A DNA stretch of 64,000 nt from Actinomycetospora chiangmaiensis DSM 45062 (GTDB taxonomy: Bacteria; Actinomycetota; Actinomycetes; Mycobacteriales; Pseudonocardiaceae), in NCBI RefSeq assembly GCF_000379625.1, contig NZ_KB903218.1, positions 62,001 through 126,000 on the forward strand, in the 5' to 3' direction. Below are positions 26,876 to 44,138 of this stretch, piece after piece. A program made the translations under genes and the position numbers. A model generated the notes under the pieces. It searched no databases. It saw nothing but the letters and a program-made list of their open reading frames with translations, and was not told where the DNA came from. Numbering within the stretch: the first letter of the stretch is position 1; each line of letters begins with the position of its first letter.

Positions 26876-26882
26876 GTCGACG

Positions 26883-26931
26883 AGTGCCGTGTGTGGTGCG
26901 CGGTGGTCCCCGATGCACCGCACACGCCACT
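26883..26931. terminator. Bidirectional hairpin, 17-bp stem
   Basis: Arms 26883-26899 and 26915-26931 pair over 17 bp with one mismatch and one G-T; the loop is 15 nt. It lies between convergent genes (TetR on plus, HepT on minus), so it can end transcription from both sides. Confidence 0.65.
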
Positions 26932-26964
26932 GATGGACCCAGCGCGGCAAGACGGCGGTTCCCG

Positions 26965-27809: not shown

Positions 27810-28340
27810 GTGACGGTGCTGCTGGTCTCGGGGAGCACCCGGGCGGGATCGACGAACACGGCGCTGCTGCGCACCGCGGCCGCCATGGACCCGCAGCGGA
27901 CGCGGCTCTACGACGGGCTCGCGGCGCTGCCCGCGTTCAACCCCGACGACGACGTCGAGCCGCTCCCGCCCGCCGTCGCCGACCTCCGGGGTGCGCTGGC
28001 CGCCGCCGACGCCCTGCTGATCTGCACGCCGGAGTACGCGGGCGCGCTCCCAGGGGCGTTCAAGAACCTGCTCGACTGGACCGTCGGTGGGGCCGAGATG
28101 CCGGGCCTGCCGACGGGGTGGATCAACGCGGCGGGGGTGGCGGCGCCGACCGGCGGGGCCGGCGCACACACCGAGCTCGCGACCGTGCTGGGCTACGTCC
28201 AGGCGCGCGTCGTGCCGGCGGCCTGCCGTCGGGTGCCGCTCTCCCGCGCCCAGGTCGGCGACGACGGGCTGATCGACGACCCGGCCGTGCGCGCCGAGAT
28301 CAGGGCCGCCCTGGACGCCCTGGGTGGCTTCGCCCCGTGA
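27810..28340 (+). CDS. NAD(P)H-dependent FMN reductase
   Basis: A flavodoxin-fold protein of 176 aa. VSGSTRAGSTNTALL binds the FMN phosphate; TPEYAGALPGAFKNLLDW is the family's flavin/dimer signature. Reduces FMN, quinones or azo compounds with NAD(P)H. GTG 27810. The stop codon lies within the left arm of a long palindromic hairpin. Confidence 0.92.
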   Translation: MTVLLVSGSTRAGSTNTALLRTAAAMDPQRTRLYDGLAALPAFNPDDDVEPLPPAVADLRGALAAADALLICTPEYAGALPGAFKNLLDWTVGGAEMPGLPTGWINAAGVAAPTGGAGAHTELATVLGYVQARVVPAACRRVPLSRAQVGDDGLIDDPAVRAEIRAALDALGGFAP

Positions 28341-28376
28341 GCAGAAAGTGGGCTTATAGCCCCACTTTCTGCTCAC
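28337..28376. terminator. 40-nt near-perfect palindrome holding both convergent stop codons
   Basis: Two 20-nt half sites, GTGAGCAGAAAGTGGG... and ...CCCACTTTCTGCTCAC, centred on TA|TA with a single mismatch (T-G, a wobble on the plus transcript). The TGA of the plus FMN reductase (28338-28340) and the TGA of the minus dehydrogenase (28373-28375) are both inside the arms at mirrored positions. Shares its core and outer ends with the palindrome at 43061. Confidence 0.85.
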
Positions 28377-29212
28377 ATGGCGGAGCCACCGCCGAGCTCC
28401 ACGAGGGCCGTGACGTCGGCGTCGGCCCACCCGTCGGCGGCGACGCGGAGGTAGGCGTCGCGGGCCGCCGCGGTCACCGGGAACGAGGCGTCGCCCAGGT
28501 CCAGGGCGTGCGAGAGGTCCTTGGCCGCGAGCGGGCTCGTGAACCATCCGGCGTGCTGGGGGTCGACGAACCCGTCGACGCGGTTGGCCAACCCGGGCGC
28601 GAGCATGGGGGACTCGCGCAGCAGGTCGGTGAGGGCGGTGTCGTCCAGCCCGGCGGCTCGGCCGAGGCGCACGGTCTCCGCCACCATCGCGACCCCGACC
28701 AGCAGCAGCTGGTTCGACAGCAGCTTCACGACGGAGGCGCGGGCCGGGTCCTCGCCCGCCTCGGTGGTGGCCACGAACGCGGCCCACAGTGGGGCGAGGG
28801 TGGAGCGGGCGGGTCCCGGACCCCCGACGAGCCACCGCGCCTGCCCGGCCTGTACGGCATGGGGTGCACCGAGGATCGGGGCCGCGACGAAACGCGACCC
28901 GTAGGCCGCGGCGAGCGTGGTCTGGGTGCCCGGCGCGACGGTCGAGGCGTTCACGACGAGCATCCCCGTCCACGCCGCGCGCGCCTCGCCGCCGGGCAGG
29001 GCCACCTCGAGCAGACTCGCGTCGTCGGCGAGGGACACGACCACCGCGTCGGCGGTCGCAGCGTCGGGATCGGCGAGGACCTCGGCGCGGCCCTCGAACG
29101 GGGTGGTGCGGGCGGGCGACCGGTTCCAGACCTCGAGCTCGTGTCCCTCGTCGAGCAGCCGCTCGGCCAGGGCACTGCCCATCCCACCGAGCCCGATCAC
29201 CGCGATGCGCAT
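28373..29212 (-). CDS. NAD(P)-dependent 3-hydroxyisobutyrate dehydrogenase-like enzyme
   Basis: A protein of 279 aa. N-terminal Rossmann motif GLGGMGSALAERL, then VVNASTVAPGTQ as the substrate loop, and VVKLLSNQLLLVG with the catalytic Lys near residue 170. The C-terminal helical domain is normal length. Group includes 3-hydroxyisobutyrate dehydrogenases, tartronate semialdehyde reductases and imine reductases; the Lys argues against the imine reductase group. ATG 29212. Confidence 0.88.
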   Translation of the reverse strand: MRIAVIGLGGMGSALAERLLDEGHELEVWNRSPARTTPFEGRAEVLADPDAATADAVVVSLADDASLLEVALPGGEARAAWTGMLVVNASTVAPGTQTTLAAAYGSRFVAAPILGAPHAVQAGQARWLVGGPGPARSTLAPLWAAFVATTEAGEDPARASVVKLLSNQLLLVGVAMVAETVRLGRAAGLDDTALTDLLRESPMLAPGLANRVDGFVDPQHAGWFTSPLAAKDLSHALDLGDASFPVTAAARDAYLRVAADGWADADVTALVELGGGSAM

Positions 29213-29251
29213 GCCGCGAGCCTGCCAGCCCGCGGCACCCGACGTCGGGCC

Positions 29252-29545
29252 TCAGCCCTCGACGGGGACGAGCGGGTGGATGGCCGGCGGCGCGGCGAGG
29301 TGCTCGCCGGCCACGGCGAACGCCTGGGCGACGTGCGGGGTCTGCATGTGGGCGTCCAGGTCGGCCTGCTCGCGCCACTGCTCGACCGTGACGAAGACCG
29401 TCGGCTCCGCGGCGGAGCGGGTGAGCTCGTAGGACAGGCAGCCCTCCTCGCCGCGGGTCGCGGTGACCAGCTCCGCGAGGGCTCGACCGACGAGCTCCTC
29501 CGAGCCCGGCTTGGCGGTGATCAGGGCGACGACCTGCAGCGACAT
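29252..29545 (-). CDS. ABM-domain (antibiotic biosynthesis monooxygenase-like) protein
   Basis: A protein of 97 aa with one dimeric alpha/beta barrel ABM domain: VALITAKPGSEELVGRALAE, then EEGCLSYEL and FVTVEQWREQADLDAHMQTPH, the family pattern. Such proteins are cofactor-free monooxygenases or quinone-handling proteins like YgiN. ATG 29545. Between it and the dehydrogenase (start 29212) lies a perfect CCCGACGTCGGG palindrome at 29238. Confidence 0.88.
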   Translation of the reverse strand: MSLQVVALITAKPGSEELVGRALAELVTATRGEEGCLSYELTRSAAEPTVFVTVEQWREQADLDAHMQTPHVAQAFAVAGEHLAAPPAIHPLVPVEG

Positions 29546-29557
29546 GGCGTCACCGTA

Positions 29558-29593
29558 GCGGGGTGGTGCGCACTCGCATGGCGCACCACCCGC
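29558..29593 (-). terminator. Hairpin after katG
   Basis: GGTGGTGCGC at 29562-29571 pairs perfectly with GCGCACCACC at 29581-29590 over a 9-nt loop; three further GCG/CGC pairs extend the stem past a one-base bulge. It sits between the katG stop and the downstream ABM gene. Confidence 0.7.
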
Positions 29594-29598
29594 CACGC

Positions 29599-31851
29599 TC
29601 ACCCGACCGCGACGTCGTACCGGTCGGACATCATCACCTTGTCCCACACCGCGACGAAGTCGCGCACGAACCGCTCCTGACCGTCGCTGCCCGCGTACAC
29701 CTCGGCCACGGCGCGCAGCTGCGAGTTGGACCCGAAGACGAGGTCGTTGCGGCCCGCCTGGAAGACCGGGCGGCCGCTCTCGCGGTCGTCGAGGGTGAAC
29801 GAGGTGCCGGCGTCGTCCACCTTCCTCCACTCGTAGTCCATGCTCGTCAGCACGTCGAAGAAGTCCGTGCTGAGCGTGCCGACCCGGTTGGTGAACACCC
29901 CGGAGCCCGAGCCGTCGTGGTTGCAGCCCAGCACCCGCAGGCCGCCGGTGAGCACGACCCACTCCGGCGCGCTGAGGTTCAGCTGGGCCGCCTTGTCGAG
30001 GAACAGCTCCTCCGGGGCGATCCGGGCGACCTGCGCGTACCCGTCGAGCTGGTAGTTGCGGAACCCGTCGACCACCGGCGCGAGCCAGTTGAACTGCGGC
30101 ACGTCCGTCTGCTCCTGGTACGCGTCGACGCGACCCGGGGTGAACGGCACGGTCACCGGCACCCCGGCGGCCGCCGCTGCCTGCTCGACCGCGACGCAGC
30201 CGCCCAGCACGATCAGGTCGGCGAGGCTGACGCCGGACTCGGCCGCCGCCACCTCACGGAGCTTCGCGACGACGGGCACGGTGCGGGCGTTGACCGCCCA
30301 GTCCTTCTGCGGGGCCAGGGCGATGCGGGCGCCGTTCGCGCCACCGCGCTTGTCGGTGTCGCGGTAGGTGACCGCCGAGGAGAAGGCGGTGTAGGCCAGG
30401 TCGGACACCGAGAGGCCGGAGTCGAGCAGGACCTGCTTGAGGCGGTTGACCTCGGCCTCGTCGATCACGGCACCGTCGTGCGCGGGCAGCGGGTCCTGCC
30501 AGATGAAGTCCTCCGCCGCGACCTCGGGGCCGAGGTAGCGCGACTTCGGGCCCATGTCGCGGTGGGTCAGCTTGTACCAGGCCTTCGAGAACTCCTGGGT
30601 GAAGTAGTCGAAGTCGGCGAGGAAGCGCTCGCAGATCTCGCGGTAGACCGGGTCGACCTTGAGCGCGATGTCGCTGGTCATCATCATCAGCGGGTGCTCG
30701 ACGCCGGGGAGGTGGGCGTCGGGCGTCTTCGGGGCGTCCGGGTCGACCGGCTTCCACTGCGACGCGCCCGCCGGGCTCTGCGTCTGCTCCCACTCGTGGC
30801 CGAAGAGGTTCTCGAGGTAGGAGTTGTCCCACTGCGTGGGGTTCTGGGTCCACGAACCCTCGATGCCGTTGGTCATCGTGTACTGGGCGTTGCCGGACCC
30901 CTCGGGGTTGTCCCAGCCCAGACCCATCTGCTCCATGGGCGAGATCTCCGGCGGTGCCCCGATCCGGTCCGGCGCGACGGCGCCGTGGCTCTTGCCGAAG
31001 GCGTGGCCCCCGGCGATGAGCGCGACCGTCTCCTCGTCGTTCATGGCCATCCGGCCGAAGGTGATGCGGATGTCGACCGCGGACGCGGCGGGGTCGCCGT
31101 TGCCCTCGGGGCCCTCCGGGTTGACGTAGATCAGCGACTGGTGCGACGCGGCGAGGGGCTGCTCGAGCTCGTAGCCGCTCTCGCCCGGCCGGGTGCTCCA
31201 CCGCTGGTCGCGGTTGACCATGTCGTCGTAGGACTTCACGTCGGACATGTCGATGTACTCGGGACCCCAGTAGGTCGAGTCGTCGGCCTCCCACGCGTCG
31301 CGGCGACCGCCGCCGAAGCCCGTCGTCGGGAAGCCCATGACCTCCAGGGCCACGTTCCCGGTGAGGATCATGAGGTCGGCCCAGGAGAGCGCCGAGCCGT
31401 ACTTCTTCTTGATCGGCCAGAGCAGGCGGCGCGACTTGTCGGTGTTGCCGTTGTCCCACCAGCTGGAGATCGGGGCGAAGCGCTGCATGGCCTGGCCGGC
31501 GCCGCCGCGGCCGTCGGCGATGCGGTAGGTGCCCGCTGCGTGCCACGCCATCCGGATCATCTGCGGGGCGTAGTTGCCGTAGTCCGAGGGCCACCAGGAG
31601 ACCGACGTCGTCATGAAGTGCCGGATGTCGGCCTTCAGCTCCGCCAGGTCGATCGAGGCGAACGCCGCGGTGTAGTCGTCCTCCGACAGCGGGTTCGCCG
31701 CCGCGCCGTTGCGGTGCAGCTGCTCGACGCGCAGGCGGTCCGGGTACCAGTCGGAGAGCGTCGGCGGGGTGGTGTACGCGCCGCCGAGGGTGTTGCCGCC
31801 GAAGGGGCACGCCCCCTCGAGGACCTCGGAGTACTCGGCGTATTCGGTCAT
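29599..31851 (-). CDS. katG: Catalase-peroxidase KatG
   Basis: A protein of 750 aa, normal for KatG with both halves present. Distal triad Arg100-Trp103-His104 in [12 protein letters not shown]; the adduct Tyr in [10 protein letters not shown] and Met in RMAMNDEE; proximal heme His in [14 protein letters not shown]. The C-terminal, heme-free half runs to [14 protein letters not shown]. Dismutates H2O2 and has peroxidase activity; homologues activate isoniazid. No FurA-type regulator lies next to it. ATG 31851. Confidence 0.98.
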
Positions 31852-31981
31852 GAGGTGGGGCCCCTTGCGGTAGAGGACGGTCGGCGGGCCCGCACGATCT
31901 GTCGGCCCTCGATCGTTTACCCCGGCCCGCGCGGTCGACACCGACGCGGTGACGAGTCCTCGCACTCGTCCTCACGGCCCG

Positions 31982-32021
31982 CCGGCCGCCGCCGTGCTCG
32001 CCCGAGCACGGCGGCGGCCGG
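31982..32021 (-). terminator. Strong hairpin, 18-bp perfect stem
   Basis: Arms 31982-31999 and 32004-32021 pair perfectly over 18 G/C-rich bp with a GCCC loop. It lies 14 bp past the stop of the minus-strand DUF4190-type gene, between it and katG. Confidence 0.8.
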
Positions 32022-32035
32022 TGCGACCCCGGGGG

Positions 32036-32593
32036 TCAGCCGATCCGGGCGATCTGGAAGCCGACCTGGGTGCCGTTCACGGTGTTGACCGTGATGCCGA
32101 ACTGCGCGGGGGCGCCGCCGACGGTCCCGGAGCACGTCGTGGTGGCGCCGATCTGACCGGGCAGCTGCTCGGCGCAGGTGACGTTCGTGGCGGCCGTCTG
32201 GGCGGCGACCTCGGTCGCGAGCTGGTCCGGGGCGACGACCGGGGTGTTGGCAGCCGACGGGGCGGTCGGGGCCTGCTGCGAGCTGTCGGGCTGCTGCGGG
32301 AGCTGGCTCGCGACCGACGCGGCCATGATGGTGACGATCACGGCGGTCAGCAGGCCGATCACGGTGAAGGCGATGGACAGCCACATGCCGGCGGTCGCGA
32401 GACCGCGGCCGTTCTCGTGGCGCTCGGCGGCCTGGCGGCGGCCCATGATGCCGAAGACGATGCCGAGCGGGGAGAACACGAACGCGAAGACGATCGAGAG
32501 GATCGCCATGACGTTGGTGCGCTGCGGCGTGGTGGGGGCGTACGCGGTGGCGGGCTGCTCGGGCGAGGCGTGCGGGGGGAGCTGCTGCGTCAT
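32036..32593 (-). CDS. DUF4190/DUF4333-type membrane protein
   Basis: A protein of 185 aa. A Pro-rich N-terminus is followed by two membrane segments of the DUF4190 type (MAILSIVFAFVFSPLGIVFGIMG and LATAGMWLSIAFTVIGLLTAVIV), then an extracellular domain with CAEQLPGQIGATTTCSGTVGG, the Cys-pair pattern of DUF4333. Function unknown; such proteins are common in actinobacterial envelopes. ATG 32593. Confidence 0.82.
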   Translation of the reverse strand: MTQQLPPHASPEQPATAYAPTTPQRTNVMAILSIVFAFVFSPLGIVFGIMGRRQAAERHENGRGLATAGMWLSIAFTVIGLLTAVIVTIMAASVASQLPQQPDSSQQAPTAPSAANTPVVAPDQLATEVAAQTAATNVTCAEQLPGQIGATTTCSGTVGGAPAQFGITVNTVNGTQVGFQIARIG

Positions 32594-32808
32594 CGTTCGG
32601 AAGTCCTCACGGGAATCGCTCCGCCGACGGAGGTGCCGGCGGGGTCGACGCTGCGGTGATCGCCGCAGGGCCACGCGATGCGACGGCGCCGGACGATCTT
32701 GATCGGTTCTTCACACGAATGTCGTAGTTTCGACGCGGGAGTTCGTCACCAGAGGTGTACGCCTCTGCCGTCGGACTGAGGTCGATCCCGCCCGGGCACT
32801 CCCGGCCC

Positions 32809-34062
32809 GTGCCGCGCACCCTCCCCGCGACGCCGCTCGACGAGGCCTTCCTGGACCTCCGCGCGGTGTCGGTGCTCTCCGTCCACCTCGAGATCCGGGT
32901 GGCCGGGCACGTCGACACCGCCCGCCTCGCCACGGCACTCGCGCGGGCGGCCGACGCGCACCCGATGGCCCGGGCGCGGCCCGCGCCGGAGCCGCCGTGG
33001 GCGCTGCGCGCGCGGTGGGTCCTCGACGCCCCGCTCGCGGTCGAGGTCTCCGACGACGTGACCGTCGCCCGCGACGAGCTCCAGTCGCGGCTGCCCGACG
33101 ACCGGGCGGTGGCCGTCGTCGTCGCCCGCGATCCCGATGGCGACGTCATCGCCTTCCGGTTCCACCACGCCGCGATCGACGGGCGCGGGGCGCTGCGGTT
33201 CGTCGCCTCGGTCGTCGACGCCTACGCCGGGCGGAGACTTCCCGACGCCGGGCTCGGGCGGGCCCGCGACCTCCGGCGCCTCGCCGGCGCCCGGGGCGTG
33301 CGGGACGTCGCGGCCCGCGCGGGCAAGATCGCCTCCGACGCGTGGGGGCGCGCGGCACTCACCCGGGTCGCCGGCGACGGGGGAGCGGACGGCCCCCACC
33401 ACGCGTTCGTGACCCGCCGTCTGGAACCCGGCGTCGTGGCGGCCCTGCGGGGGTCGCGACCGTCGGGCGCGACCCTCAACGACCTCCTGCTCGCCGCCCA
33501 CCTGCGCACGGTCGTCGCGTGGAACGCGCGGCAGGGCGCGCGGGTGGGGCGCAGCGTCTCGGTGATGATGCCGGTCGACCTGCGCGGGGACGACGAATCC
33601 GTGGCCAACCTCGCGAGCTACGTCGCGGTCGTGGTGCCGACCCGGGACCTCGCCGACGCCGCGTCGGCGGTCGCCGCCGTGGCCGCGCAGACCCGGGCGG
33701 TCAAGGAGCAGGGCACCGCGGGGTGGATCGTCGACGTGCTGTCCGTCCTCGTCGCGCCGCGCGGGGTGAAGCGCGTGATGCCTCGGCTGCTGCCGCTGGT
33801 CGAGGGACGCTTCGTCGAGACGACGATCCTGTCGAACCTCGGGCCGGCGGCCCTCGGCGACCTGGCGGAGGCGGGCCGGGTCCGCGAGGTCCGGTTCAGC
33901 CCGCCCAACCTCTCACCGCGCATGGCGGTGACCCTCGGCGTCGTCGGTCACGACGACGGGCTGACCCTCACCTGGCGCTCGCTGCGCCGGGACATCGGCC
34001 CGGCCGGGCTCGAGGTCGTCGCCCGGATGTTCCTCGAGACGCTCGGCGCGGACCGGGGCTGA
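32809..34062 (+). CDS. Condensation-fold acyltransferase (WS/DGAT- or Pap-like)
   Basis: A protein of 417 aa. FHHAAIDGRGALRFV carries the HHxxxDG active-site motif shared by WS/DGAT wax ester synthases, polyketide-associated Pap proteins and NRPS condensation domains. TTILSNLGP in the second half matches the NxGP-type segment. No carrier protein or NRPS is nearby. Start chosen at GTG 32809, just before LPATPLDEAFLDL, the usual beginning; GTG 32755 would add 18 residues. Acyl donor and acceptor unknown. Confidence 0.78.
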   Translation: MPRTLPATPLDEAFLDLRAVSVLSVHLEIRVAGHVDTARLATALARAADAHPMARARPAPEPPWALRARWVLDAPLAVEVSDDVTVARDELQSRLPDDRAVAVVVARDPDGDVIAFRFHHAAIDGRGALRFVASVVDAYAGRRLPDAGLGRARDLRRLAGARGVRDVAARAGKIASDAWGRAALTRVAGDGGADGPHHAFVTRRLEPGVVAALRGSRPSGATLNDLLLAAHLRTVVAWNARQGARVGRSVSVMMPVDLRGDDESVANLASYVAVVVPTRDLADAASAVAAVAAQTRAVKEQGTAGWIVDVLSVLVAPRGVKRVMPRLLPLVEGRFVETTILSNLGPAALGDLAEAGRVREVRFSPPNLSPRMAVTLGVVGHDDGLTLTWRSLRRDIGPAGLEVVARMFLETLGADRG

Positions 34063-34158
34063 GTCGAGGGGGGAGTCGGAGGGGAGGAGGCCCGCTCTGC
34101 TGGAGCCCCCACCCGTGCGCAGACCATAACGGCTCTTACCTGGTTGTGCAAAACCGTT

Positions 34159-35079
34159 CTACGCCGCAGCGGCCCGGTCGGGCGTCGAGCGGGCGGCCGC
34201 GTCCCGGTCCTCGAGGGCACGGCGGACCGCGTCGTCGTAGGGCATCGGGTCGAACGGGACGAGCCGACGGATCGCGTCGTCGCGGACCACGACCTCGTTC
34301 GACATCGAGTCGATCAGGGAGCGGCCGGTGGCGGTGTCGACGTCGGTGACCAGTGACAGCCACCGCGAGGACAGCGACGGCGTGAGCAGCGGCACCGGCA
34401 CGATGGCGAGGCGGCGCCGGCCCATGACGGCCGCGGCCCGCTGCATCATGTCGGCGTACACGAGCACGTCGGGGCCGCCGACGTCGAAGGCGCGACCCGT
34501 GGTGGCGTCGACGTCGAGAACGGCGACGAGGTAGTGCACGACGTCGTCGATCGCGATCGGCTGCGTCCGGGTGTACACCCAGCGCGGGCACACCATGGCC
34601 GGCAGGTGGGAGACCAGCTGCCGGGTCATCTCCCACGAGATGCCGCCGTGCCCGACGATGATGCCGGCCCGGATCGTCGTCACCGGCACGCCGCCCTCGG
34701 CGAGGTGCGACTCGACCTCGCGGCGGCTGCGCAGGTGGTCGGAGAGGTCGTCACGGTCGTCACCCAGGCCACCGAGGTACACGATCCGCCGCACCCCGGC
34801 CGCGGCAGCGGCCCGACCGAAGGCGCGGGCACCGTCGGCGTCGGCGCGCACGAAGTCGGCGCGGTCGAGCGAGTGCACCAAGTAGTAGGCCACGTCGTGG
34901 CCCTCCAGCGCGCCGCGCAGCGTCGCCGGTTCGTGCACGTCACCGCGCACCGGATCGCCGCACCCCTCGTACCGCTCGGGGCGCCGGGTCATGGCGGACA
35001 CGGCGTGGCCGGCGTCGTGCAGGGCCTCGCACAGCCGCTGCCCGACGAAGCCGGACGCGCCCGCGATCAACAAACGCAT
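34159..35079 (-). CDS. NAD(P)-binding atypical SDR (NmrA/YbjT-like)
   Basis: A protein of 306 aa. N-terminal LLIAGASGFVGQRLCEAL is the atypical GxxGxxG Rossmann motif. AYYLVHSLDRADF and RIVYLGGLGDD are characteristic of the DUF2867-linked epimerase-like group. The active-site Tyr of classical SDRs is not evident. ATG 35079 with GGAGGG upstream. May act as a redox sensor or an oxidoreductase with unknown substrate. Confidence 0.82.
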   Translation of the reverse strand: MRLLIAGASGFVGQRLCEALHDAGHAVSAMTRRPERYEGCGDPVRGDVHEPATLRGALEGHDVAYYLVHSLDRADFVRADADGARAFGRAAAAAGVRRIVYLGGLGDDRDDLSDHLRSRREVESHLAEGGVPVTTIRAGIIVGHGGISWEMTRQLVSHLPAMVCPRWVYTRTQPIAIDDVVHYLVAVLDVDATTGRAFDVGGPDVLVYADMMQRAAAVMGRRRLAIVPVPLLTPSLSSRWLSLVTDVDTATGRSLIDSMSNEVVVRDDAIRRLVPFDPMPYDDAVRRALEDRDAAARSTPDRAAAA

Positions 35080-35178
35080 GCCCTCCTGGTACCCCGTGGC
35101 CAAACCTCGCGGCGCCGGGCACCTGTCGTCGGGACCGCTCCTCCCGACGTCGGGTCCGCCCCGGCTACCGTCCGCGCC

Positions 35179-35922
35179 ATGCCCGCCGACGGCCCGACCA
35201 TCCTCGCCACCTCCGGCGGCCTGCGCCGCGCCGACCGCATCGACTGGCAGGTCGCCCCGCTGACCCACCACGCGGTCGAGCTGGCCGGGGTGACCGGCCG
35301 TGCGCCCCGGGTGTGCCTGATCCCGACGGCGGTGGGCGACGACCCGCGCCTCGTCATGACCTTCTACGACAACGCCTCGCGCCTCGGCTGGGCCGCGAGC
35401 CACGTCGCGCTGATCCCGATGCCCAACGTCGACGACCTGCGCGCGCACCTGCTCGCGCAGGACGTCATCTGGGTGTGGGGCGGCAGCGTGGCCGCCCTGC
35501 TCGCGCTCTGGCGCCTGAACGGGCTCGACACGATCCTGCGCGAGGCGTGGGAGGCCGGGGTGGTGCTCACGGGCGTCTCGGCGGGGTCGATCTGCTGGCA
35601 CGTCGGCGGCACGACCGACTCGTTCGGCCCGACGCTCCAGCCGGTGATCAACGGCCTCGCGCTGCTGCCGTACGCGAACGGCGTGCACTACGACTCGGAG
35701 TCCGAGCGCCGTCCCCTGCTGCACCGGCTCGTCGCCGAGCAGATCGTGCCCACCGCGTACGCCACCGACGACGGCGCCGGGCTGCTCTACCGCGGCACGG
35801 AGCTCGCCGAGGTCCTCACCGAACGCGACGGTGCCCGCGCCTACCGGGTCGAGCGCGGCCCGGACGGTGCCGCGGTGGAGACCGAGCTGGACTTCCGCCG
35901 ACTGCCGTCGCCGTCCTCGTAG
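35179..35922 (+). CDS. Peptidase E-like (S51) hydrolase
   Basis: A protein of 247 aa with the class I glutamine amidotransferase-like fold. GVSAGSICWH holds the nucleophile Ser in the S51 elbow; WVWGGSVAALLALWR corresponds to the GGN-type loop; His in GVHYDSESE may complete the catalytic set. Known members hydrolyse Asp-X dipeptides. ATG 35179. Confidence 0.85.
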   Translation: MPADGPTILATSGGLRRADRIDWQVAPLTHHAVELAGVTGRAPRVCLIPTAVGDDPRLVMTFYDNASRLGWAASHVALIPMPNVDDLRAHLLAQDVIWVWGGSVAALLALWRLNGLDTILREAWEAGVVLTGVSAGSICWHVGGTTDSFGPTLQPVINGLALLPYANGVHYDSESERRPLLHRLVAEQIVPTAYATDDGAGLLYRGTELAEVLTERDGARAYRVERGPDGAAVETELDFRRLPSPSS

Positions 35923-35931
35923 GCTGCGCCC

Positions 35932-36123
35932 GTGGATCGTCGGCGGGTGGTCGCGCTCGTGCTCGTCGGGCTCGCGATCCTCTGGCTCCCGCTGAACCAG
36001 CCGGTCGAGGGCCCGCAGCTGCTGCGCCTCTCCGAGACCCACGCCGTGACCACGGCCGACCTGCTCTCGGTCGCGCTCGTGCTGGTCGCGGCGTGGTTGT
36101 GGTGGTCGAGCCGGTCGCGCTGA
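35932..36123 (+). CDS. Small two-helix membrane protein
   Basis: A protein of 63 aa with hydrophobic segments at about residues 6-20 and 45-58 and basic ends (MDRRR, SSRSR). GTG 35932, 9 bp after the peptidase E-like stop, so likely co-transcribed. High GC at third positions agrees with coding. No family recognised. Confidence 0.5.
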   Translation: MDRRRVVALVLVGLAILWLPLNQPVEGPQLLRLSETHAVTTADLLSVALVLVAAWLWWSSRSR

Positions 36124-36127
36124 GACG

Positions 36128-36820
36128 TCAGCGCACGCCCGCGCGGCTGTGCCGTGGTGGGGCGTCGGCAGCAGGGACCGGGCGCGGCGGGGTCGGCCGG
36201 ACGGGCGGGGCGCCGTGACCGGCCGCCGCGTACATCGGGGGAGCGGGCGCACGGGCGGGCACGGTCTCCGCCTCGTCAGCGCGCACCGGGCGGGGCGCGG
36301 GTGGGGAGGGCGGTGCGGGCGGCGTGGGTGGCGTGGGTGGCGTGGGTGGCGTGGTCGGGGCGGGCGGCGCGGGCGGCGTGGTCGGCGCGGGCGGCATCGC
36401 GGGCCCACGCCCGTCGTCGGGAGCGCTCTCGACGCGGGCCTGCGCCTGCGCCTCGAGGAGGTCGCGGATCTGGGTGAGGAGCTCGACGTCCGTCGGCTGC
36501 GACGGGCCCGCCTCCTCGCCGCGCAGGCGCCGGTTCTGGATCGCCTTCATCGGGGCGACGACCAGGAAGTACACGACCCCGGCCGTGATGAAGAACGTGA
36601 TCGCCTGGTTGATGAAGGTCGCGTAGTCGAACGGCACGCCGCTGACGCGGAACGTGCCGCGGAACTGGTCGCCGCCGGGGGAGAGCAGCTGGATGAGCGG
36701 CTTGAGGAACGACTCGGTGAAGGCCGTGACGACCGCCGTGAACGCGGCACCGATGACGACCGCCACCGAGAGGTCGATGACGTTCCCGCGGAGCAGGAAG
36801 TCCTTGAATCCCTTGAGCAT
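36128..36820 (-). CDS. mscL: Large-conductance mechanosensitive channel with a long Pro-rich tail
   Basis: Residues 1-125 are a standard MscL: FKDFLLRGNVIDLSVAVVIG at the N-terminus, two membrane helices, and VVAPMKAIQNRRLRGEEAG before the cytoplasmic helix (ELLTQIRDLLEAQAQ). Residues about 135-230 are an added tail rich in Pro, Thr and Ala with PTTPPAPPAP-type repeats. MscL is normally 130-150 aa; this one is 230. It opens under membrane tension during osmotic downshock. ATG 36820. Confidence 0.95.
   Translation of the reverse strand: MLKGFKDFLLRGNVIDLSVAVVIGAAFTAVVTAFTESFLKPLIQLLSPGGDQFRGTFRVSGVPFDYATFINQAITFFITAGVVYFLVVAPMKAIQNRRLRGEEAGPSQPTDVELLTQIRDLLEAQAQARVESAPDDGRGPAMPPAPTTPPAPPAPTTPPTPPTPPTPPAPPSPPAPRPVRADEAETVPARAPAPPMYAAAGHGAPPVRPTPPRPVPAADAPPRHSRAGVR
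36321..36356 (-). repeat. 9-bp tandem repeat inside mscL
   Basis: Three exact copies of GGCGTGGGT plus one altered copy. On the coding strand they give Thr-Pro-Pro units of the MscL tail. Prone to slippage in steps of three residues, so tail length may vary between strains. Confidence 0.7.
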
Positions 36821-37032
36821 CGTGGTCCTCGGGCAGGGAGCTGGGGAGCTGGCCCCGAGGCTAGGGATCGCACCCCGACGCCGAGGAAGCGCGATCGGCG
36901 GGTCGCGGTGGGTCGGCCGTGCAGTGCGGTGAGCGTCGCGGCGCCGATCGGGCCCGCTCCGGACGCCGCACGACACGCACCGCCGACCGACCCGGCGTGT
37001 GGTGACCGGCGCGACCCGCCGTCGGGAAGGCC

Positions 37033-38376
37033 CTACCGCGTCAGCGAGCGCAGCAGCATCGTCTCCGCGAGGACGCAGCGGCGGAACATCGCGAGGTGCA
37101 GGCTCTCGTCGATCCCGTGCCAGCGCGAGGCCGGGTCACCGACGCCGGTGACGAGCACGGTCGCGCCCGGGAAGGTGCGGGCGAACTCGGCGATGAACGG
37201 GATCGTGCCGCCCATCCCCATCTCGACGGCCTCGGAGCCGAAGGCGGCGGAGAGGGCCTCGCGGGCGAGGTCGTAGACGGTGCCCTCGGCGGACAGCGCG
37301 AACGGCTCGCCGGAGGCGTGCAGCGAGACCTCCAGGCCCACGCCCCACGGGGCCTGGCGCTGCAGGTGTTCGCGGACCGCCTCGAAGGCCGACGCCGTCG
37401 CGTCGCCCGGCGCCAGGCGCACGCTGATCATCGCGCGGGCGCGGTGCACGAGGATGTTCGCCGCGCCCTCGACGGCCGGGGCGTCGACGCCGAGCACCGC
37501 GATCGCCGGCTGCTGCGCGACCCGCTCCTCGATCGACCCGGTGCCGAGCAGGTCCACGCCCTCCAGGACGCCGGCGTCCCCGCGGAACTGCTCCTCCGAC
37601 ATCCCGGGCACGTCGGAGGACCCGCGCACGAGCCCCGGCACCGCGACCGACCCCTTGTCGTCGTGCAGCGTCGCGAGCAGGCGGCACAGCGCGGTGAGGG
37701 CGTCGCCGGCCGGACCGCCGAACAACCCCGAGTGCACTGCGCGCTCGAGCATCGACACCTCGACGACGATGTTCGTGAGTCCCCGCAGCGACGTGGTCAG
37801 CGCGGGCACGTCGACCGCCGGGTTGCCGGCGTCCGCGATGACGATGACGTCGGCCGCGAGTGCGGCATGGTGCTCGGCGAGCAGCGCGGACAGCGTCGGC
37901 GACCCCGACTCCTCCTCGCCCTCCACGAACAACGTCACCCCGACCGGAGGGCGACCGTCGTACGCGCGCAGCGTGGCGAGGTGTGTCATCACGCCGGCCT
38001 TGTCGTCCGCGGCGCCGCGCCCGTAGAGCCGGCCGTCGCGCTCCGTGGGCTCGAACGGGGCGGAGGTCCAGAGCTCGTCGCCGCCGGTCGGCTGCACGTC
38101 GTGGTGGGCGTAGAGCATCACGGTCGGCTGGCCCTCGGGCGCCGGCCAGCGCGCGACGACGGCCGGTGCCCCGCCCGCCGCGGCGAGCACCTCCACCGAC
38201 GACGCGCCGGCCTCCCGCGCGAGCATGGCCACGGCGTCGGCCGACCGGCGGGTGTCCTCGCGGTGGGCCGGGTCGGCCCAGATGCTGGGGATGCGGACGA
38301 GACCGTCGAGGTCACGCCGGGCATCGGGGAGCACCGCGTCGACGGCGGTCTGCAGATCGGCGGGAACGTCAGCCAT
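37033..38376 (-). CDS. M20-family metallodipeptidase
   Basis: A protein of 447 aa. Metal ligands and catalytic residues are in YAHHDVQPTG (His, Asp), GRGAADDKAGV (bridging Asp), FVEGEEESGSP (general base Glu pair) and WHGIDESL (last His). The lid domain lies between residues about 200 and 310. Cleaves dipeptides or N-acyl amino acids with Zn or Mn. ATG 38376. Confidence 0.94.
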   Translation of the reverse strand: MADVPADLQTAVDAVLPDARRDLDGLVRIPSIWADPAHREDTRRSADAVAMLAREAGASSVEVLAAAGGAPAVVARWPAPEGQPTVMLYAHHDVQPTGGDELWTSAPFEPTERDGRLYGRGAADDKAGVMTHLATLRAYDGRPPVGVTLFVEGEEESGSPTLSALLAEHHAALAADVIVIADAGNPAVDVPALTTSLRGLTNIVVEVSMLERAVHSGLFGGPAGDALTALCRLLATLHDDKGSVAVPGLVRGSSDVPGMSEEQFRGDAGVLEGVDLLGTGSIEERVAQQPAIAVLGVDAPAVEGAANILVHRARAMISVRLAPGDATASAFEAVREHLQRQAPWGVGLEVSLHASGEPFALSAEGTVYDLAREALSAAFGSEAVEMGMGGTIPFIAEFARTFPGATVLVTGVGDPASRWHGIDESLHLAMFRRCVLAETMLLRSLTR

Positions 38377-38446
38377 GCCGCGACCCTAGGCCCCGTGGCG
38401 CCCGGGCGAGCGGGATTCACGGGTCGCTCCTGCGGACGCCGTTCGG

Positions 38447-38953
38447 TCAGCGTGCGGCCAGTTCCCTGGCCCGGTCGAGGGCGTCGGTCGTGCCCTCCAC
38501 CGCCCGGCGCGCGACGGCGCCCTCGAGGAGCAGGAAGAGGTACTCCGCGCGGTCGGGGTCGCCCGTCAGCCGCGTCAGCTCGTCGCGGACCGCCTGCTTG
38601 TGGGCCTGGATCACGGCAAAGGCCGGGTGGTCGCGGGGGAGCTCCGCGGCGGCGCGCTGGAACCCGCACCCGAGGTCGGTGTCGAACTGCGGGTGCGCGA
38701 GGTAGCTGTCGAACACGGTGTCCACCTGCGGTTTCGCGGCGAGGCGTTCCTGCAGGTCGGCCCACCACCGGTCGTGCCGGCGCTGCAGGTACGCGGTGAC
38801 CAGGGCGGCCTTGGAGCCGAACTGGTCGTAGAGCGTCTTCTTCGTGACGCCGGCCGCCTCGGCGATCCCCGCGACCCCGACCGCCGTGATCCCGTGCGTA
38901 TAGAAGAGCGCCGAGGCGTGGTCGAGGATGCGCTGCCCCGCGGGAGTCGTCAT
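38447..38953 (-). CDS. TetR-family regulator
   Basis: A protein of 168 aa. HTH at about residues 25-50 (VAGIAEAAGVTKKTLYDQFG). C-terminal domain with CGFQRAAAELPRDHPAF, a pattern of the AcrR-like group with TetR_C-type ligand pocket. Divergent from a HAD hydrolase gene across 71 bp that holds two related palindromic sites, so it likely controls itself and the hydrolase. ATG 38953. Confidence 0.9.
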   Translation of the reverse strand: MTTPAGQRILDHASALFYTHGITAVGVAGIAEAAGVTKKTLYDQFGSKAALVTAYLQRRHDRWWADLQERLAAKPQVDTVFDSYLAHPQFDTDLGCGFQRAAAELPRDHPAFAVIQAHKQAVRDELTRLTGDPDRAEYLFLLLEGAVARRAVEGTTDALDRARELAAR

Positions 38954-38963
38954 GACTTGACGG

Positions 38964-38980
38964 TATACCGACCGGTGGGT
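38964..38980. promoter_or_regulatory. Candidate TetR operator O1
   Basis: TATACCGACCGGTGGGT contains an imperfect ACCGACCGGT core. It lies 11 bp before the TetR ATG. Its centre is 28 bp from the centre of O2. Confidence 0.5.
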
Positions 38981-38990
38981 CAAGGTGCGT

Positions 38991-39008
38991 GTAAACCGAT
39001 CGGTCTAC
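38991..39008. promoter_or_regulatory. Candidate TetR operator O2
   Basis: GTAAACCGATCGGTCTAC: a perfect 10-bp ACCGATCGGT core with nearly matching flanks. This is close to the TAGACCGATCGGTCTA-type sites known for several TetR/AcrR repressors. It lies 17 bp before the HAD gene start. Confidence 0.6.
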
Positions 39009-39024
39009 CTGTGGGGGAGTCGCC

Positions 39025-39741
39025 ATGATCCGCGCCATGACCTTCGACGTCGTCGGGACGTTGATCGACTTCGAGTCGGGCATCCTGCGGTGTATCCGGT
39101 CCTTCTCGCCCGTTCCCGACGACCGGTCGGTGCTGGCGGCGTTCGGCGCCGCCGAGGACGCCCAGCAGCGGCTCACGCCCGAGCGACCGTTCCCGGCGAT
39201 GCTCGACCCGATCTCGGTGCAGCTGGCCGCCGAGCTCGGGATTCCGGAGCTGGCCGGTTCGCCGTCGCCGCTGCGGTGGTCACTGGGCTCGTGGCCGGCG
39301 TTCCCCGACGCCGCCGAGGTGCTGGCCCGCTGGCGCGACCGGTTCGTGCTGGTGGCGCTGACGAACGCCGACCGGGCCGCGCTCGAGGCGTGGGGCCCGG
39401 CACTGGGGCACCCGTTCCACGCCACGGTGACCGTCGACGAGGTCGGCGTGAACAAGCCGGACCCGCGCATGTTCGAGGCGGCCCTGGACAAGCTCGCCGC
39501 GGTCGGGATCGGCCGGGACGAGGTGCTGCACGTCGCCCAGAGCCAGTACCACGACATCGGCGCGGCGCACGCGCTCGGCCTGCGCACCTGCTGGGTCGAA
39601 CGGCGGCACGGGCAGGCTGGTACCGGGGCGACGCCGACCGCGACCGTCGTCCGGCCCGACCTGCACGTCCGCTCACTCGCGGAGCTCGACGAACTCCTCC
39701 AGGGCACGGCGGTACTCGACGGCGGGCGGGCGGCGGGGTAG
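39025..39741 (+). CDS. HAD-superfamily hydrolase (haloacid dehalogenase-like)
   Basis: A protein of 238 aa. TFDVVGTLID holds the nucleophile Asp8; LVALTNADRAAL is motif II; NKPDPRMFEAAL holds the motif III Lys; VAQSQYHDIGAAHALG replaces motif IV. The DVVGT form is typical of L-2-haloacid dehalogenase type II relatives. RBS GGGGGAG before ATG 39025; ATG 39037 is possible. Substrate unknown. Confidence 0.88.
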   Translation: MIRAMTFDVVGTLIDFESGILRCIRSFSPVPDDRSVLAAFGAAEDAQQRLTPERPFPAMLDPISVQLAAELGIPELAGSPSPLRWSLGSWPAFPDAAEVLARWRDRFVLVALTNADRAALEAWGPALGHPFHATVTVDEVGVNKPDPRMFEAALDKLAAVGIGRDEVLHVAQSQYHDIGAAHALGLRTCWVERRHGQAGTGATPTATVVRPDLHVRSLAELDELLQGTAVLDGGRAAG

Positions 39742-40214
39742 CGATATTGCCCGGGCCGGGAACCTCCGGCGACGAGGTCGCCGGTCGCCGGTCGCGCGTG
39801 ATCTGCCGCGCCGTCGCGACCCACGCGACGTCGAGCCACCCGGCCGCGGCGACGACGGCGGCCCCCAGCACCGCCGTCGTCGCCCTCCGCGACCGTCGCG
39901 CCCCGTCGCCCCCTCCCCCCGGCGGGGCGGTGTGTCAGCGCGAGCGGCTCACGTGCTGATCACACCCGCTGGACCTTTCGTACGCCTTTCAATCCTGCGG
40001 ACCGGTCGGCACGGGCTGCCACGGCCGGTTGTGTCGTGGTGTGCGGGCGCGGGTCTTGCGGACGACGTCGAGGACCTCGCCGTGGGTGCGAGGACCACGG
40101 GGATGACGTCGGTGTCGCACGCCGCGGTCGTCCCGACTGCGGCCGCCCCCGCCGGGGTGCGTGGCGGTCACCGTGATGGCGACGCGGGCTGCCCCGGGAG
40201 GGAACGGCGTCCGA
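39742..40214. other. Intergenic stretch with no convincing gene
   Basis: 473 bp (728 bp if the small gene at 40215 is not real). Open frames here are Arg/Pro-rich and look like noise. The part at 39950-40010 is the least GC-rich and could hold a promoter. I see no hairpin comparable to the other terminators. Confidence 0.5.
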
Positions 40215-40388
40215 TCATCCGCGTCGCCGTGACTCGGATGAACCGGAGCGCTCCTGCTCCTGCTCCTCGACGAACAGCACCCGGGCTCCGTCGCGGGCGA
40301 GGGCGGTGGCGATCTCCACGGCCGCCGACACGGCCGAGAACTCCGTCCCCTCGACCACGGCGACCACCCGGCACTCGCGCAACGACAT
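40215..40388 (-). CDS. Possible small protein, 57 aa
   Basis: CRVVAVVEGTEFSAVSAAVE, then IATALARDGARVLFVEEQEQE, reads like a beta-alpha-beta unit with typical GC-rich third positions for this genome. The C-terminus (SGSSESRRRG) is low complexity. No clear RBS; GTG 40412 is an alternative start. It follows the MEDS operon on the same strand. No family recognised; may be a gene remnant. Confidence 0.35.
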   Translation of the reverse strand: MSLRECRVVAVVEGTEFSAVSAAVEIATALARDGARVLFVEEQEQERSGSSESRRRG

Positions 40389-40469
40389 GGCGAGCGCCGT
40401 CGTCGCGGCCACCCACGGGGCGTGGCGTCGATCGGACCCCCGGCGCGACCGCCACCGGGAGCAGGAAGA

Positions 40470-41345
40470 TCAGCGGGTGCCGGTGAGGACCCGGACGGTG
40501 CGGCCGTGCCGGTCGTCGTGGGCGGTGGCGTGGTCGCAGAAGCGGGTGAGGTGGGCGAAGCGGGGGTCCTCGACGGCGACCCCGGCACCACCGGCCACCT
40601 CGGGCACGGCCCGGCACTCGGCGACCACCGCGTCCGCGCTCACCCGGACGTCGAGGGTGTGCTCCCCGGGCGGGAGGTCGGCGGGCCCGGGGACCAGCTC
40701 GACCCCGCAGGCGAGCAGCATCGCCTCGTGGGCGGCGAGCACGGCGGCCTCGGCGCGCTCGCCGTAAAGCCCGGCGTCGCGCACCGCGGCGGCGACCCGG
40801 TGGCGCAGCGCCGCGAGCGCCGCCCCGTCGGGGACCGGGACCCGGTCGACCGACGAGCCGAGGACCGCCGCGGGCACGGGGCTCGTCGGGGCGGGCGGGA
40901 GGTGGTCGGGGGAGGGGACGGGGCCGTCGGGGGTGAGCAGCCACGGGTGCGCGCGCCGGGCGGCCTCGACCAGGACCGGGGGGTAGACGCACAGCACCGC
41001 CAGCGCCTGGTCGGCGAGCAGCACGGAGAGCGCGTCCTCGGCGAGCGCGCGGACGTCGGGGTCGGCGTCGGCGCAGCTCCGACCGACCACCACGGCGCCC
41101 GGCCCGAGGTCGGCGAGCCGGTGGCCGAGGACGGTGGGGTCGACGTCGACCGGGGCGGGCAGGTCCAGGGGGGCGTCCGGGCGGGCGTCGCGGAACGTCC
41201 GGGCGCCGCGCCGGTCGAGCACCACCTCCACGGGGGCGCCGGCGGCGAGCGCGGTGTCCACGGCGGGCAGGCAGAGCCGGGCGAGGTCCTCGGGGTCCTC
41301 CGCGACGACGGCCGCGTGCAGCAATCCCGCCCCGCCCGGGCTCAC
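40470..41345 (-). CDS. MEDS-domain protein with degenerate kinase-like C-terminus (RsbA-type)
   Basis: A protein of 291 aa. Residues about 5-150 resemble the MEDS sensory domain (LLHAAVVAEDPEDLARLCLPAVDTALAAGAPVEVVLDRR). Residues about 175-290 align in order with the HATPase domain of RsbA-family anti-sigma regulators, but the N-box Asn (AVLAAHEAMLLACG) and the glycine-rich ATP lid are not visible. So ATP binding is doubtful. GTG 41345 overlaps the STAS partner's stop by 4 nt. Likely part of a partner-switching circuit. Confidence 0.68.
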   Translation of the reverse strand: MSPGGAGLLHAAVVAEDPEDLARLCLPAVDTALAAGAPVEVVLDRRGARTFRDARPDAPLDLPAPVDVDPTVLGHRLADLGPGAVVVGRSCADADPDVRALAEDALSVLLADQALAVLCVYPPVLVEAARRAHPWLLTPDGPVPSPDHLPPAPTSPVPAAVLGSSVDRVPVPDGAALAALRHRVAAAVRDAGLYGERAEAAVLAAHEAMLLACGVELVPGPADLPPGEHTLDVRVSADAVVAECRAVPEVAGGAGVAVEDPRFAHLTRFCDHATAHDDRHGRTVRVLTGTR

Positions 41346-42214
41346 GCGTCCCCGCCCTCGCGGAGCACGATGGTGTCGGGCCGCTCCAGCGCGTCGAGCA
41401 GGCGGCGCAGCAGCCGGGGCGGTTCGTGCAGCACGAGCCGCTGTCCGGCGGGTGCCGACCGGGCGGCCAGCACCATCAGCTGGGCGCAGGCGACGTCGAC
41501 GAACCCCACCGCGCCCAGGTCGACGTGCAGGTCCGGGCTCTGCCCGGTGCCCGCCTCGGCGGTGGTGCGGGCCCGGCGCATGGCCCCGGTCAGCGCCCCG
41601 CCGAAGCGCTGGGCCACGTGCGCGTCGAGGTCGCCGGAGACCCGCCAGCGCCCGCACGACTGGTGGGCGCCCCAGCCGACGTCGAGCACGTCACGGTGGT
41701 GGATGCCGAGCGAGTGGACGACGTGGACCTCGTTCTCCACGGCCGTCGTCAGCTGGCAGAGCACGTGCAGCGGGAAGCGGGCCGTGAGGTCGTCGTAGCC
41801 GCCCTCCTGCTGCGCGAAGACCGCCACCTCGTCGTCGTCGGCGAGCGGGCGGCGGGACGACTCCTGCGTCATCGCCACCGAGGTCCAGCCCTCGTCGAGC
41901 GCGCGGTGCAGCTCCTCGGCCTGGACCCGGTGCAGCCCCTCCGCGGTCCCGTCGACGAGGTCGACGAGGCGCGGGAAGTCCATGAACTCCAGCTGCCCGG
42001 TCGCCAGCGCCCGCCGCGTGCGCACCGTCGCCTGCGGGCCGGCGATCCAGTGCTTCTCGAGGCGCCGGTCCTCGCCGAGCCAGCCCTTGTAGTAGACCTT
42101 CGCGCCGAAGGCCAGCTCGCGGTCGAGCCAGGCGGCGGTGCCGACCCGCTGCCCGTGATCGCTCTCGGCGACCTGCAGCAGATGCGCGCGCGCCGGGCCC
42201 GCGTCCACCGTCAT
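41342..42214 (-). CDS. MEDS-STAS protein (anti-anti-sigma-like)
   Basis: A protein of 290 aa. N-terminal MEDS domain (HLLQVAESDHGQRV, ELAFGAKVYYKGWLGED). Residues about 185-285 are a STAS domain: LHVDLGAVGFVDVACAQLMVLAARSAPAGQRLVLHEPP. The phosphorylatable Ser usual in D-[ST]-S-G loops is replaced (GFVDVACAQ). ATG 42214. Coupled to the RsbA-like gene; together they look like a sensing switch controlling an unlinked sigma factor. Confidence 0.78.
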   Translation of the reverse strand: MTVDAGPARAHLLQVAESDHGQRVGTAAWLDRELAFGAKVYYKGWLGEDRRLEKHWIAGPQATVRTRRALATGQLEFMDFPRLVDLVDGTAEGLHRVQAEELHRALDEGWTSVAMTQESSRRPLADDDEVAVFAQQEGGYDDLTARFPLHVLCQLTTAVENEVHVVHSLGIHHRDVLDVGWGAHQSCGRWRVSGDLDAHVAQRFGGALTGAMRRARTTAEAGTGQSPDLHVDLGAVGFVDVACAQLMVLAARSAPAGQRLVLHEPPRLLRRLLDALERPDTIVLREGGDA

Positions 42215-42382
42215 CGCGTCCGTGACTCCCGCGTCCGTCCCCCGACGTCCGAGGCCCGGCCCCGCCGACCGGATCCGCCGGACAGCATCGCCCGGACGAG
42301 ACCCGTCCGGGACCGTTCACGACCCAGGTTCACCCGATACGCACGGGTTGTGACGTGGCGTGACCACTCTAAGGTCCCCGGT

Positions 42383-43072
42383 ATGCCGGTCCTCCTCGGT
42401 GACGCCTACCGCGACGCCCACGGGCGCGTGGACGCGCGGATGCGCTCTCTCGCCGCCCTCGACCCCGACGCCCTGGGCACCCTGGTGCCCGCCTGCCCCG
42501 GGTGGACGGTGCACGCCGTGGTGTCGCACCTCGTCGGCATCGCGGCCGACGCCCTCGCCGGGCGTCTCACCGGCCCGCCCGACGACGAGTGGACCGCCGG
42601 CCAGGTCGACCAGCGGCTGGGTGTCCCCGTCGAGGACGTGCTGGCCGAGTGGGCTCCGTTGGTCGACCCGATGGTCGCCGGGCTCAACGACCGGAGGATC
42701 CCACCGCCGGCCTGCGCCGACGCCCTCGTCCACGAGGGGGACGTCGTCGAGGCGCTCGGCGACGAGGTGCCGCCGGTCGAGACGTGGGGCGGGGTCGCCA
42801 CGATGCTCTGCGGTGGGTGGCTCAAGGGGCTCCGCGTGCCGGGGACCCTCGTGGTGCGCACGGACGGGAAGGAGTTGACCGGTGGCACCGGGGACGGGCC
42901 GACCGCCACGCTGACGGTCGGGCGGTGGGAGTTCTTCCGGGGCGTGTTCAGCCGACGCAGCCTCGACCAGATGCGGGCCTGGGACTGGGACGGTGACCCG
43001 GAGCCGTGGCTCGCCCCGCTGTGCGTGTTCGGCCCGCGGACGGACGATGTGCCTCCGGCACGTGAGCACTGA
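42383..43072 (+). CDS. Maleylpyruvate isomerase/MDMPI-fold protein
   Basis: A protein of 229 aa. LVPACPGWTVHAVVSHLVGI is the N-terminal signature of the mycothiol-dependent maleylpyruvate isomerase (DinB-like) family, with metal-binding His residues in HAVVSH and DALVHEGD. C-terminal SCP2-like part: LVVRTDGKELTGG. ATG 42383. Its last codons (ARG-GLU-HIS-stop) lie inside a 42-bp palindrome shared with the convergent patatin gene. Confidence 0.85.
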   Translation: MPVLLGDAYRDAHGRVDARMRSLAALDPDALGTLVPACPGWTVHAVVSHLVGIAADALAGRLTGPPDDEWTAGQVDQRLGVPVEDVLAEWAPLVDPMVAGLNDRRIPPPACADALVHEGDVVEALGDEVPPVETWGGVATMLCGGWLKGLRVPGTLVVRTDGKELTGGTGDGPTATLTVGRWEFFRGVFSRRSLDQMRAWDWDGDPEPWLAPLCVFGPRTDDVPPAREH

Positions 43073-43102
43073 GTGGGGCTATAGCCCCACTCAGTGCTCA
43101 CG
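43061..43102. terminator. Perfect 42-bp palindrome encoding the ends of two convergent genes
   Basis: Half site CGTGAGCACTGAGTGGGG followed by CTA, then its exact reverse complement; no mismatch over 21+21 bp. Stop codon of the plus MDMPI gene at 43070-43072 and of the minus patatin gene at 43091-43093 are at mirrored positions. Both proteins therefore end in the same residues, REH. Core and outer ends match the palindrome at 28337, with a compensated 3-bp change in each arm. Confidence 0.9.
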
Positions 43103-44101: not shown

Positions 44102-44138
44102 CACCACACCGATCATGCTCCGGACGGCGGCGTCGTGC

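Follow-up and report, generated by a model that had tools for sequence, protein, structure and literature searches.

What kind of element overlaps both stop codons of a convergent gene pair, and why do its two arms change together? The question is raised by two palindromes in a 64,000-nt stretch of Actinomycetospora chiangmaiensis DSM 45062 (assembly GCF_000379625.1, contig NZ_KB903218.1, positions 62,001–126,000; hereafter the window). In the first-pass annotation they were described as having common ends and a common core, as differing by a 3-bp block changed in both arms (GAA/TTC in copy 1, CTG/CAG in copy 2) and as lying between convergent genes with both stop codons inside, all of which was found to hold (Table 1). 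Copy 1 is near-perfect, with 16 perfect outer pairs and two loop-adjacent pairs that are one C:C and one T:G, and copy 2 is perfect. Chance is far from accounting for both: the core pattern at ≤2 mismatches matched the window twice (0.07 expected; 0 of 100 shuffles reached 2), as did the pattern of ends plus TATA (0.00 expected). They are members of a dispersed, point-symmetric hairpin family. With somewhat more confidence than doubt, we favour the reading that this family would mark gene 3′ ends, most often those of two convergent genes together, and that its copies would be homogenised by copying within genomes.

Family size and distribution

In the A. chiangmaiensis genome (5.86 Mb), the family ends around any 26-nt middle, giving exactly 40 nt, were found 92 times, and 94 times when the middle was allowed to span 22–28 nt, so that the length of the family is nearly constant. 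Ends plus TATA retrieved 37 copies and the core pattern at ≤3 mismatches 42, with zero matches for the reversed control. The original observation is thus confirmed and larger than reported, and its interpretation is supported; the genome-wide membership, and the mini-hairpins on either side of each palindrome described below, had been missed.

A covariance model built from 44 copies of this genome found matches in 18/18 Actinomycetospora genomes (both strands counted, ≤150 matches per genome scored). Counts of exact ends over 297 genomes of the taxonomic family gave 2–183 copies per genome in Actinomycetospora, 4–61 in 7 of the 22 genomes of genus g26, and 0–3, near the control level, in all other genomes. 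In the Saccharopolyspora genome G262 (g26), 58 copies have the 40-nt length. The one at C6:5415 is also the element of locus L133 from Saccharopolyspora oryzae, and the named species S. hirsuta and S. indica are likewise among the matches listed. Some of the numbered genomes may equal assemblies of named records, and G005 and G010 were merged with theirs. The stretch search listed 80 of at least 103 matches, all of which were used (62 from Actinomycetospora, 8 from Saccharopolyspora, 10 from other organisms); the outer GTGAGC/GCTCAC is kept in none of the 10 stretches from other organisms among these 80.

A second subfamily (CTTTCCGTGGC..GCCACGGAAAG), with a freely varying loop, occurs in the A. 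chiangmaiensis genome alongside the GTGGGG subfamily (e.g. G000:C1:308654, C2:260788 and C4:67203). Two other copies (G000:C3:192976 and C8:74640) carry the GGTCGC core seen in other species (A. soli, G004) and may be old relics or imports.

Position at gene ends and stop codons

Genes were called with codon-score scripts made for this analysis, not with an annotation pipeline. Among 49 copies of the A. chiangmaiensis genome, selected by ends plus TATA or by the core pattern (two places on contig 31 not included), 31 lie between convergent, 17 between tandem and 1 between divergent genes; adjacent gene pairs of the same loci (n = 295) comprise 60 convergent and 55 divergent ones. The enrichment at convergent ends that the first-pass annotation had anticipated was therefore found. 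In a larger set, which partly includes these 49 and holds 3 duplicates, 94 of 154 copies are convergent and 5 divergent. For Saccharopolyspora the figures are 12 and 1 of 24 copies, against 21 and 17 of 94 adjacent pairs.

Stops of genes facing the element lie at −33 to +19 nt of the main stem in 76/79 cases in the A. chiangmaiensis genome; in the larger set, the ranges are −33 to +20 for 176/184 on sides with a mini-hairpin and −23 to +18 for 52/58 on sides without. Preferred stop points are the base of the stem (GTGA), its middle (ACTAA/ACTGA), the loop (TATAG), the far arm (CTTAG) and a point near the outer edge of the mini-hairpin. Genes consequently have element-encoded protein tails in common, read in one of three frames (one ending at GTGA; one giving ..REH or ..EQKVGL; one giving ..YSPT). 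Because orthologs may read the element in different frames (L040 vs L095, L049 vs L081), the tails are probably not functional parts of the proteins. The convergent-end position, the overlap with stops and the near absence between divergent genes together argue for a role at transcript ends, and of the functions first proposed, a dispersed bidirectional terminator appears to be the best candidate.

Pairing of the main stem

The outer pairs of the main stem are nearly invariant (conserved ends GTGAGCA/TGCTCAC), and the middle is variable but largely matched between the arms. Over 44 aligned copies, 90.0% of cells were paired (85.1% after shuffling) and 34 cells were changed on both sides (13.2 after shuffling), neither value being reached in any of 500 shuffles; the covariation check proposed with the original observation thus came out beyond the shuffles. 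Over 16 arm positions, the two arms of one copy in the A. chiangmaiensis genome differ by a mean of 1.24, arms of different copies by 3.84.

Flanking mini-hairpins

Short hairpins accompany the main stem in Actinomycetospora. Across 280 flanks, taken from unique copies with both flanks complete (flanks cut by locus ends were left out), the loop read outward is GN(N)A, closed as C(GNA)G or C(GNNA)G, in 190 and the reverse TN(N)C in 8; random sites gave 500 of each among 60,000. In the A. chiangmaiensis genome, CGNAG lies ≤8 nt from the stem in 77/98 flanks, against 6% of random 13-nt windows, and the three pairs beyond it form in 99, 83 and 71% at family flanks vs ~30% at other CGNAG sites. For 35 distinct aligned 11-mers, 85.7% of cells were paired (60.8% shuffled) and 27 were changed on both sides (7.4 shuffled), again with 0 of 500 shuffles reaching either value.

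The mini-stems on the two sides of a copy vary independently, being equal in 17/75 copies where 20 are expected. A single long stem spanning outer flank to outer flank, which RNA folding favours at both window copies and on both strands, was rejected as the conserved form on the same count.

Such mini-hairpins were absent from the Saccharopolyspora copies (0/20 flanks). The flanks there contain TGACC in 11/48 cases, vs 4% of random 26-mers. Some of them (L197–L211 and the Saccharopolyspora loci of L094–L173) show a motif close to TGACCWGCGGAAA, six bases outside the stem.

Among 17 tetraloops, 14 (GTCA 10, GACA 2, GCTA 2) lie outside GNRA, the tetraloop class familiar from RNA. PMC4686876 describes DNA hairpins with a GNA or GNNA loop and G-C pairs as extraordinarily stable, and both points together hint at a role at the DNA level. 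The palindrome could be a self-copying DNA element in the form of folded single strands, in which the ultra-stable mini-hairpin on the 3′ side of each strand would prime or guide synthesis, one copy would overwrite others and the element would also serve as a gene boundary; we regard this as possible but unlikely.

A dyad bound by a protein on double-stranded DNA (an insulator, nucleoid or recombinase site) would suit the constant length and the conserved ends and centre. It is very improbable all the same, as the middle varies yet stays matched within a copy, and the mini-hairpins stay paired through several pair types, a feature that recognition of half-sites does not need.

Matched arms need not mean selection alone, because template switching rewrites arms and inverts loops. 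According to PMC8604942 and PMC8794818, it homogenises the arms of inverted repeats, inverts their loops and can create compensated stems. The arms might then be a mutational product, rewritten again and again while the structure is not selected, and the close orthologs L082 and L084, which differ at 4 positions by eye and at 2 after one copy is inverted, would fit this. Such rewriting would leave unexplained the conserved ends, the constant 40-nt size, the position at stops, the likeness between unlinked copies and the 190:8 orientation of the mini-hairpin loops, which inversion of the spacer would mix; we consider it improbable as the whole explanation.

Likeness within genomes and orthologous sites

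Nineteen orthologous pairs differ at a mean of 8.8 of 40 positions (for pair L095/L040 the distance of 17 is too high, the centre being offset by one base). In 13 of the 18 pairs with paralogs, the distance between the orthologs exceeds the mean for their own paralogs, 3 pairs being mixed and 2 the reverse; choosing these loci by centre or core pattern biased them towards likeness. Mean distances within a genome are small in G010 (2.1), A. soli (3.4) and G005 (4.1) and larger in A. termitidis (8.8) and A. succinea (9.9). In samples picked by the outer ends only (10 genomes, 6 copies per genome), 48% of copies had their nearest neighbour within their own genome, where chance would give 8.5%, and the mean distance was 9.3 within and 12.5 between genomes, below all 2000 permutations. 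The samples were drawn from 50 listed of the 92 A. chiangmaiensis copies, the first 27 of 50 listed (58 counted) in G262 and the listed 40-nt copies of G001–G006, G008 and G009; three copies of other length and both G007 copies were left out. Several subfamilies coexist per genome, and the effect is weak in G006 (13.2 within, 14.1 between) and G008 (11.8 and 12.6).

Since orthologs differ more on average than copies of one genome, the copies appear homogenised, in the manner of concerted evolution, and their cores, even at orthologous sites, tend to follow the species. The first-pass annotation had attributed the matched arms to selection or to a copying mechanism; this stands as an either/or, and the species-specific cores speak for copying as a contributing cause at least.

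The element is carried by 52 of 70 orthologous gene ends, which is not a rate, as most of these loci were fetched for holding it. The 18 ends without an exact match comprise 2 with a diverged family member, 2 (one junction) with a decayed remnant, 6 (five junctions) with an unrelated hairpin of ≥16 net pairs and 8 with no hairpin of 11; in a control set of 300 random gene ends lacking the element, a hairpin of ≥11 net pairs occurs at 33. The replacement by unrelated hairpins suggests that at these ends the hairpin rather than its spelling matters. Long unrelated palindromes (e.g. GCCATGTGAACGGATGTGGTCG..) were seen at orthologous ends without the element (L125 near 4072, L151 at 5695–5737 and L109 near 4334) and may represent further dispersed families.

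Mobility and uptake

The number of copies within one genus, the species-specific cores, the protein tails encoded by the element and the orthologous ends that lack it are what would be expected of a non-autonomous mobile palindrome (REP/MITE-like), spread by a transposase and merely tolerated at gene 3′ ends. Matches to a Y1 (REP/RAYT) transposase were found in 0 of the 18 genomes of the genus, whereas 5 of 14 control genomes had one, and copy 1 was without a match in phage or plasmid collections. Tolerated insertions should moreover scatter through the spacers, but in Actinomycetospora stops lie within ~20 nt of nearly every copy (the coupling is looser in Saccharopolyspora), and elements persist at orthologous sites. 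A mobile palindrome is accordingly judged unlikely, although worth keeping in view; of the label 'REP-like' given earlier, only the appearance as many short palindromes between genes stood. The IS91-type Y2 transposase was likewise found in 0/18 genomes, which is uninformative as the control genomes also had no match. Reverse transcriptase was considered as the copying enzyme and set aside, since matches occur in 4/18 genomes and none in that of A. chiangmaiensis, so that no link emerges.

DNA-uptake-like sequences paired into terminators, as in Neisseria and Pasteurellaceae, would account for a lineage-specific spelling at terminator positions and for the excess of the word GTGAGCA in the window (18 vs 6.3 shuffled; the 14 outside both copies are still above the shuffled mean). 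Uptake signals number at least 1,000 per genome in the consulted part of PMC1852404, against ~100 copies here. In the window, 13 of the 14 single words lie within called genes and 1 outside, which would, as far as the window shows, also speak against uptake, an explanation that we hold to be scarcely credible.

Proposed mechanism and counter-evidence

In the reading of a gene-end hairpin family homogenised by copying, the hairpin would form in RNA at the stop codon, whichever the direction of transcription, and would end or trim the transcript without a U-tract, thereby protecting its 3′ end. Copies within each genome would be homogenised by ectopic copying, and arm-to-arm template switching in DNA replication (hairpin-templated synthesis) would help to restore matched arms. 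In our view, copying, repair of the arms and selection at gene ends work in concert. As a hairpin, the element is GC-rich (mean minimum free energy of the 40-mers, −29.3 kcal/mol). The window gave no match to Rfam above the gathering score (4227 families). A scan for T-tract terminators over 28200–43300 returned 2 sites vs 1.4 expected; one of them is an inner stem of copy 1, short and read on the minus strand, for which the arm itself supplies the 'tail'.

Several results weigh against this reading. No T-tract follows the stem, the longest T run being 0–2 in 300 and 3 in 2 of 302 flanks (those cut by locus ends left out). Ribosomes should interfere with a hairpin lying across the stop; the E. 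coli terminator tR2 was almost completely repressed several bp behind a gene, according to PMC4824070. At tandem sites, G-U vs A-C in the sense strand stands at 16:10 (p = 0.33, not significant). The flank overlapping the gene end, which has the poorer loop in sense RNA, is kept there in 34/43 cases vs 26/43 downstream (p = 0.10); it is thus retained no less often than the downstream one, a pattern for which selection acting only on sense RNA gives no need.

The number of main-stem pairs with a two-sided change is 7 vs 5.7 shuffled and so not beyond the shuffles, and one inner pair is unpaired in 25/44 copies. For the mini-hairpins, neither the pairs with a two-sided change (3 vs 2.7) nor the further pair types (7 vs 6.8) exceed the shuffles. 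In the Saccharopolyspora genome G262 the arms match less well (1.63 vs 2.33), a value also reached by the lowest of 2000 permutations. Across Saccharopolyspora the coupling to stops is looser too, with 27/34 at −4 to +28 and the others 58–510 away. Only 2 of the 10 convergent gene pairs of the window carry a family element, and at 10 of the 70 orthologous ends neither an intact element nor a hairpin reaching 11 net pairs is present, 2 of these ends holding the decayed remnant.

Comparison with known systems

U-tract-less ('I-shaped') hairpin terminators occur in actinobacteria, and the family resembles them in its strong GC-rich hairpin, its place at convergent gene ends and the lack of a U-tract; it differs in being one dispersed sequence with conserved ends, constant size, flanking mini-hairpins and stops inside. 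With the REP/BIME elements and their RAYT transposases, as covered in the consulted parts of PMC12306157 and PMC1590033, it has in common the short dispersed palindromes at gene 3′ ends; the missing Y1 match, the near-perfect 40-nt stem and the three-hairpin layout set it apart. The uptake-sequence terminators in the same portion of PMC1852404 likewise join a repeated word head to head in a lineage-specific spelling, unlike the window, where single words lie almost only inside genes. Hairpin families at gene 3′ ends are also formed by the stem-loop repeats of Bordetella, Yersinia and Enterococcus (PMC1590033), which have other hosts and for which homogenised species spellings are not described in the sections consulted of that source. 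The mini-hairpins belong to the same loop class as the GNA/GNNA DNA hairpins in the consulted passages of PMC4686876, with a C-G closing pair here and ≥2 G-C pairs there; those are designed DNA, and these are a natural, repeated genomic feature. A description of the family was not found in the open-access papers searched, judged mostly by titles and abstract openings.

Features of the window

The two palindromes, their mini-hairpins and the four adjoining genes are collected in Table 1. Two further structures were seen in the window: a perfect 19-bp inverted repeat with a 2-nt loop at 31982–32021, unrelated in sequence to the hairpin family, and another long hairpin in the convergent spacer 26875–26965 (−81 kcal/mol with 30 nt on each side), which is without the family ends.

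Table 1. Coordinates of the palindromes and of their neighbours in the window
Feature	Positions	Strand	Sequence or source
Main stem-loop, copy 1 (GAA type), 40 nt, 18-bp arms around TATA	28337..28376	.	GTGAGCAGAAAGTGGGCTTATAGCCCCACTTTCTGCTCAC
Main stem-loop, copy 2 (CTG type), perfect 42-nt palindrome	43061..43102	.	
Left mini-hairpin of copy 1 (outward, on the − strand, GGC[GAA]GCC)	28326..28334	+	GGC[TTC]GCC
Right mini-hairpin of copy 1	28378..28388	+	TGGC[GGA]GCCA
Left mini-hairpin of copy 2	43049..43061	+	GTGCC[TCC]GGCAC
Right mini-hairpin of copy 2	43104..43112	+	GCC[GCA]GGC
FMN reductase family gene (PF03358); TGA stop 28338–28340 within copy 1	27810..28340	+	Pfam
6-Phosphogluconate/3-hydroxyisobutyrate dehydrogenase-like gene (PF03446, PF14833; NAD-binding); TGA stop 28373–28375 within copy 1	28373..29212	−	Pfam
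MDMPI_N-domain gene (PF11716); TGA stop 43070–43072 within copy 2, tail ..AREH*	42383..43072	+	Pfam
Patatin-like phospholipase gene (PF01734); TGA stop 43091–43093 within copy 2, tail ..AREH*	43091..44116	−	Pfam

Significance

To our knowledge, transcription termination in high-GC actinobacteria has no clear sequence signature, and the family offers ~100 copies per genome on which it can be studied. Compensatory change, concerted evolution and stop position can be traced together across species, and the effects of selection on structure can be told apart from those of hairpin-templated copying. Were the self-copying of folded single strands true, the gene-end hairpins of one genome would evolve together without a known transposase. 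The orientation bias of the GNA/GNNA loops suggests a genomic use of a DNA structure known from designed DNA.

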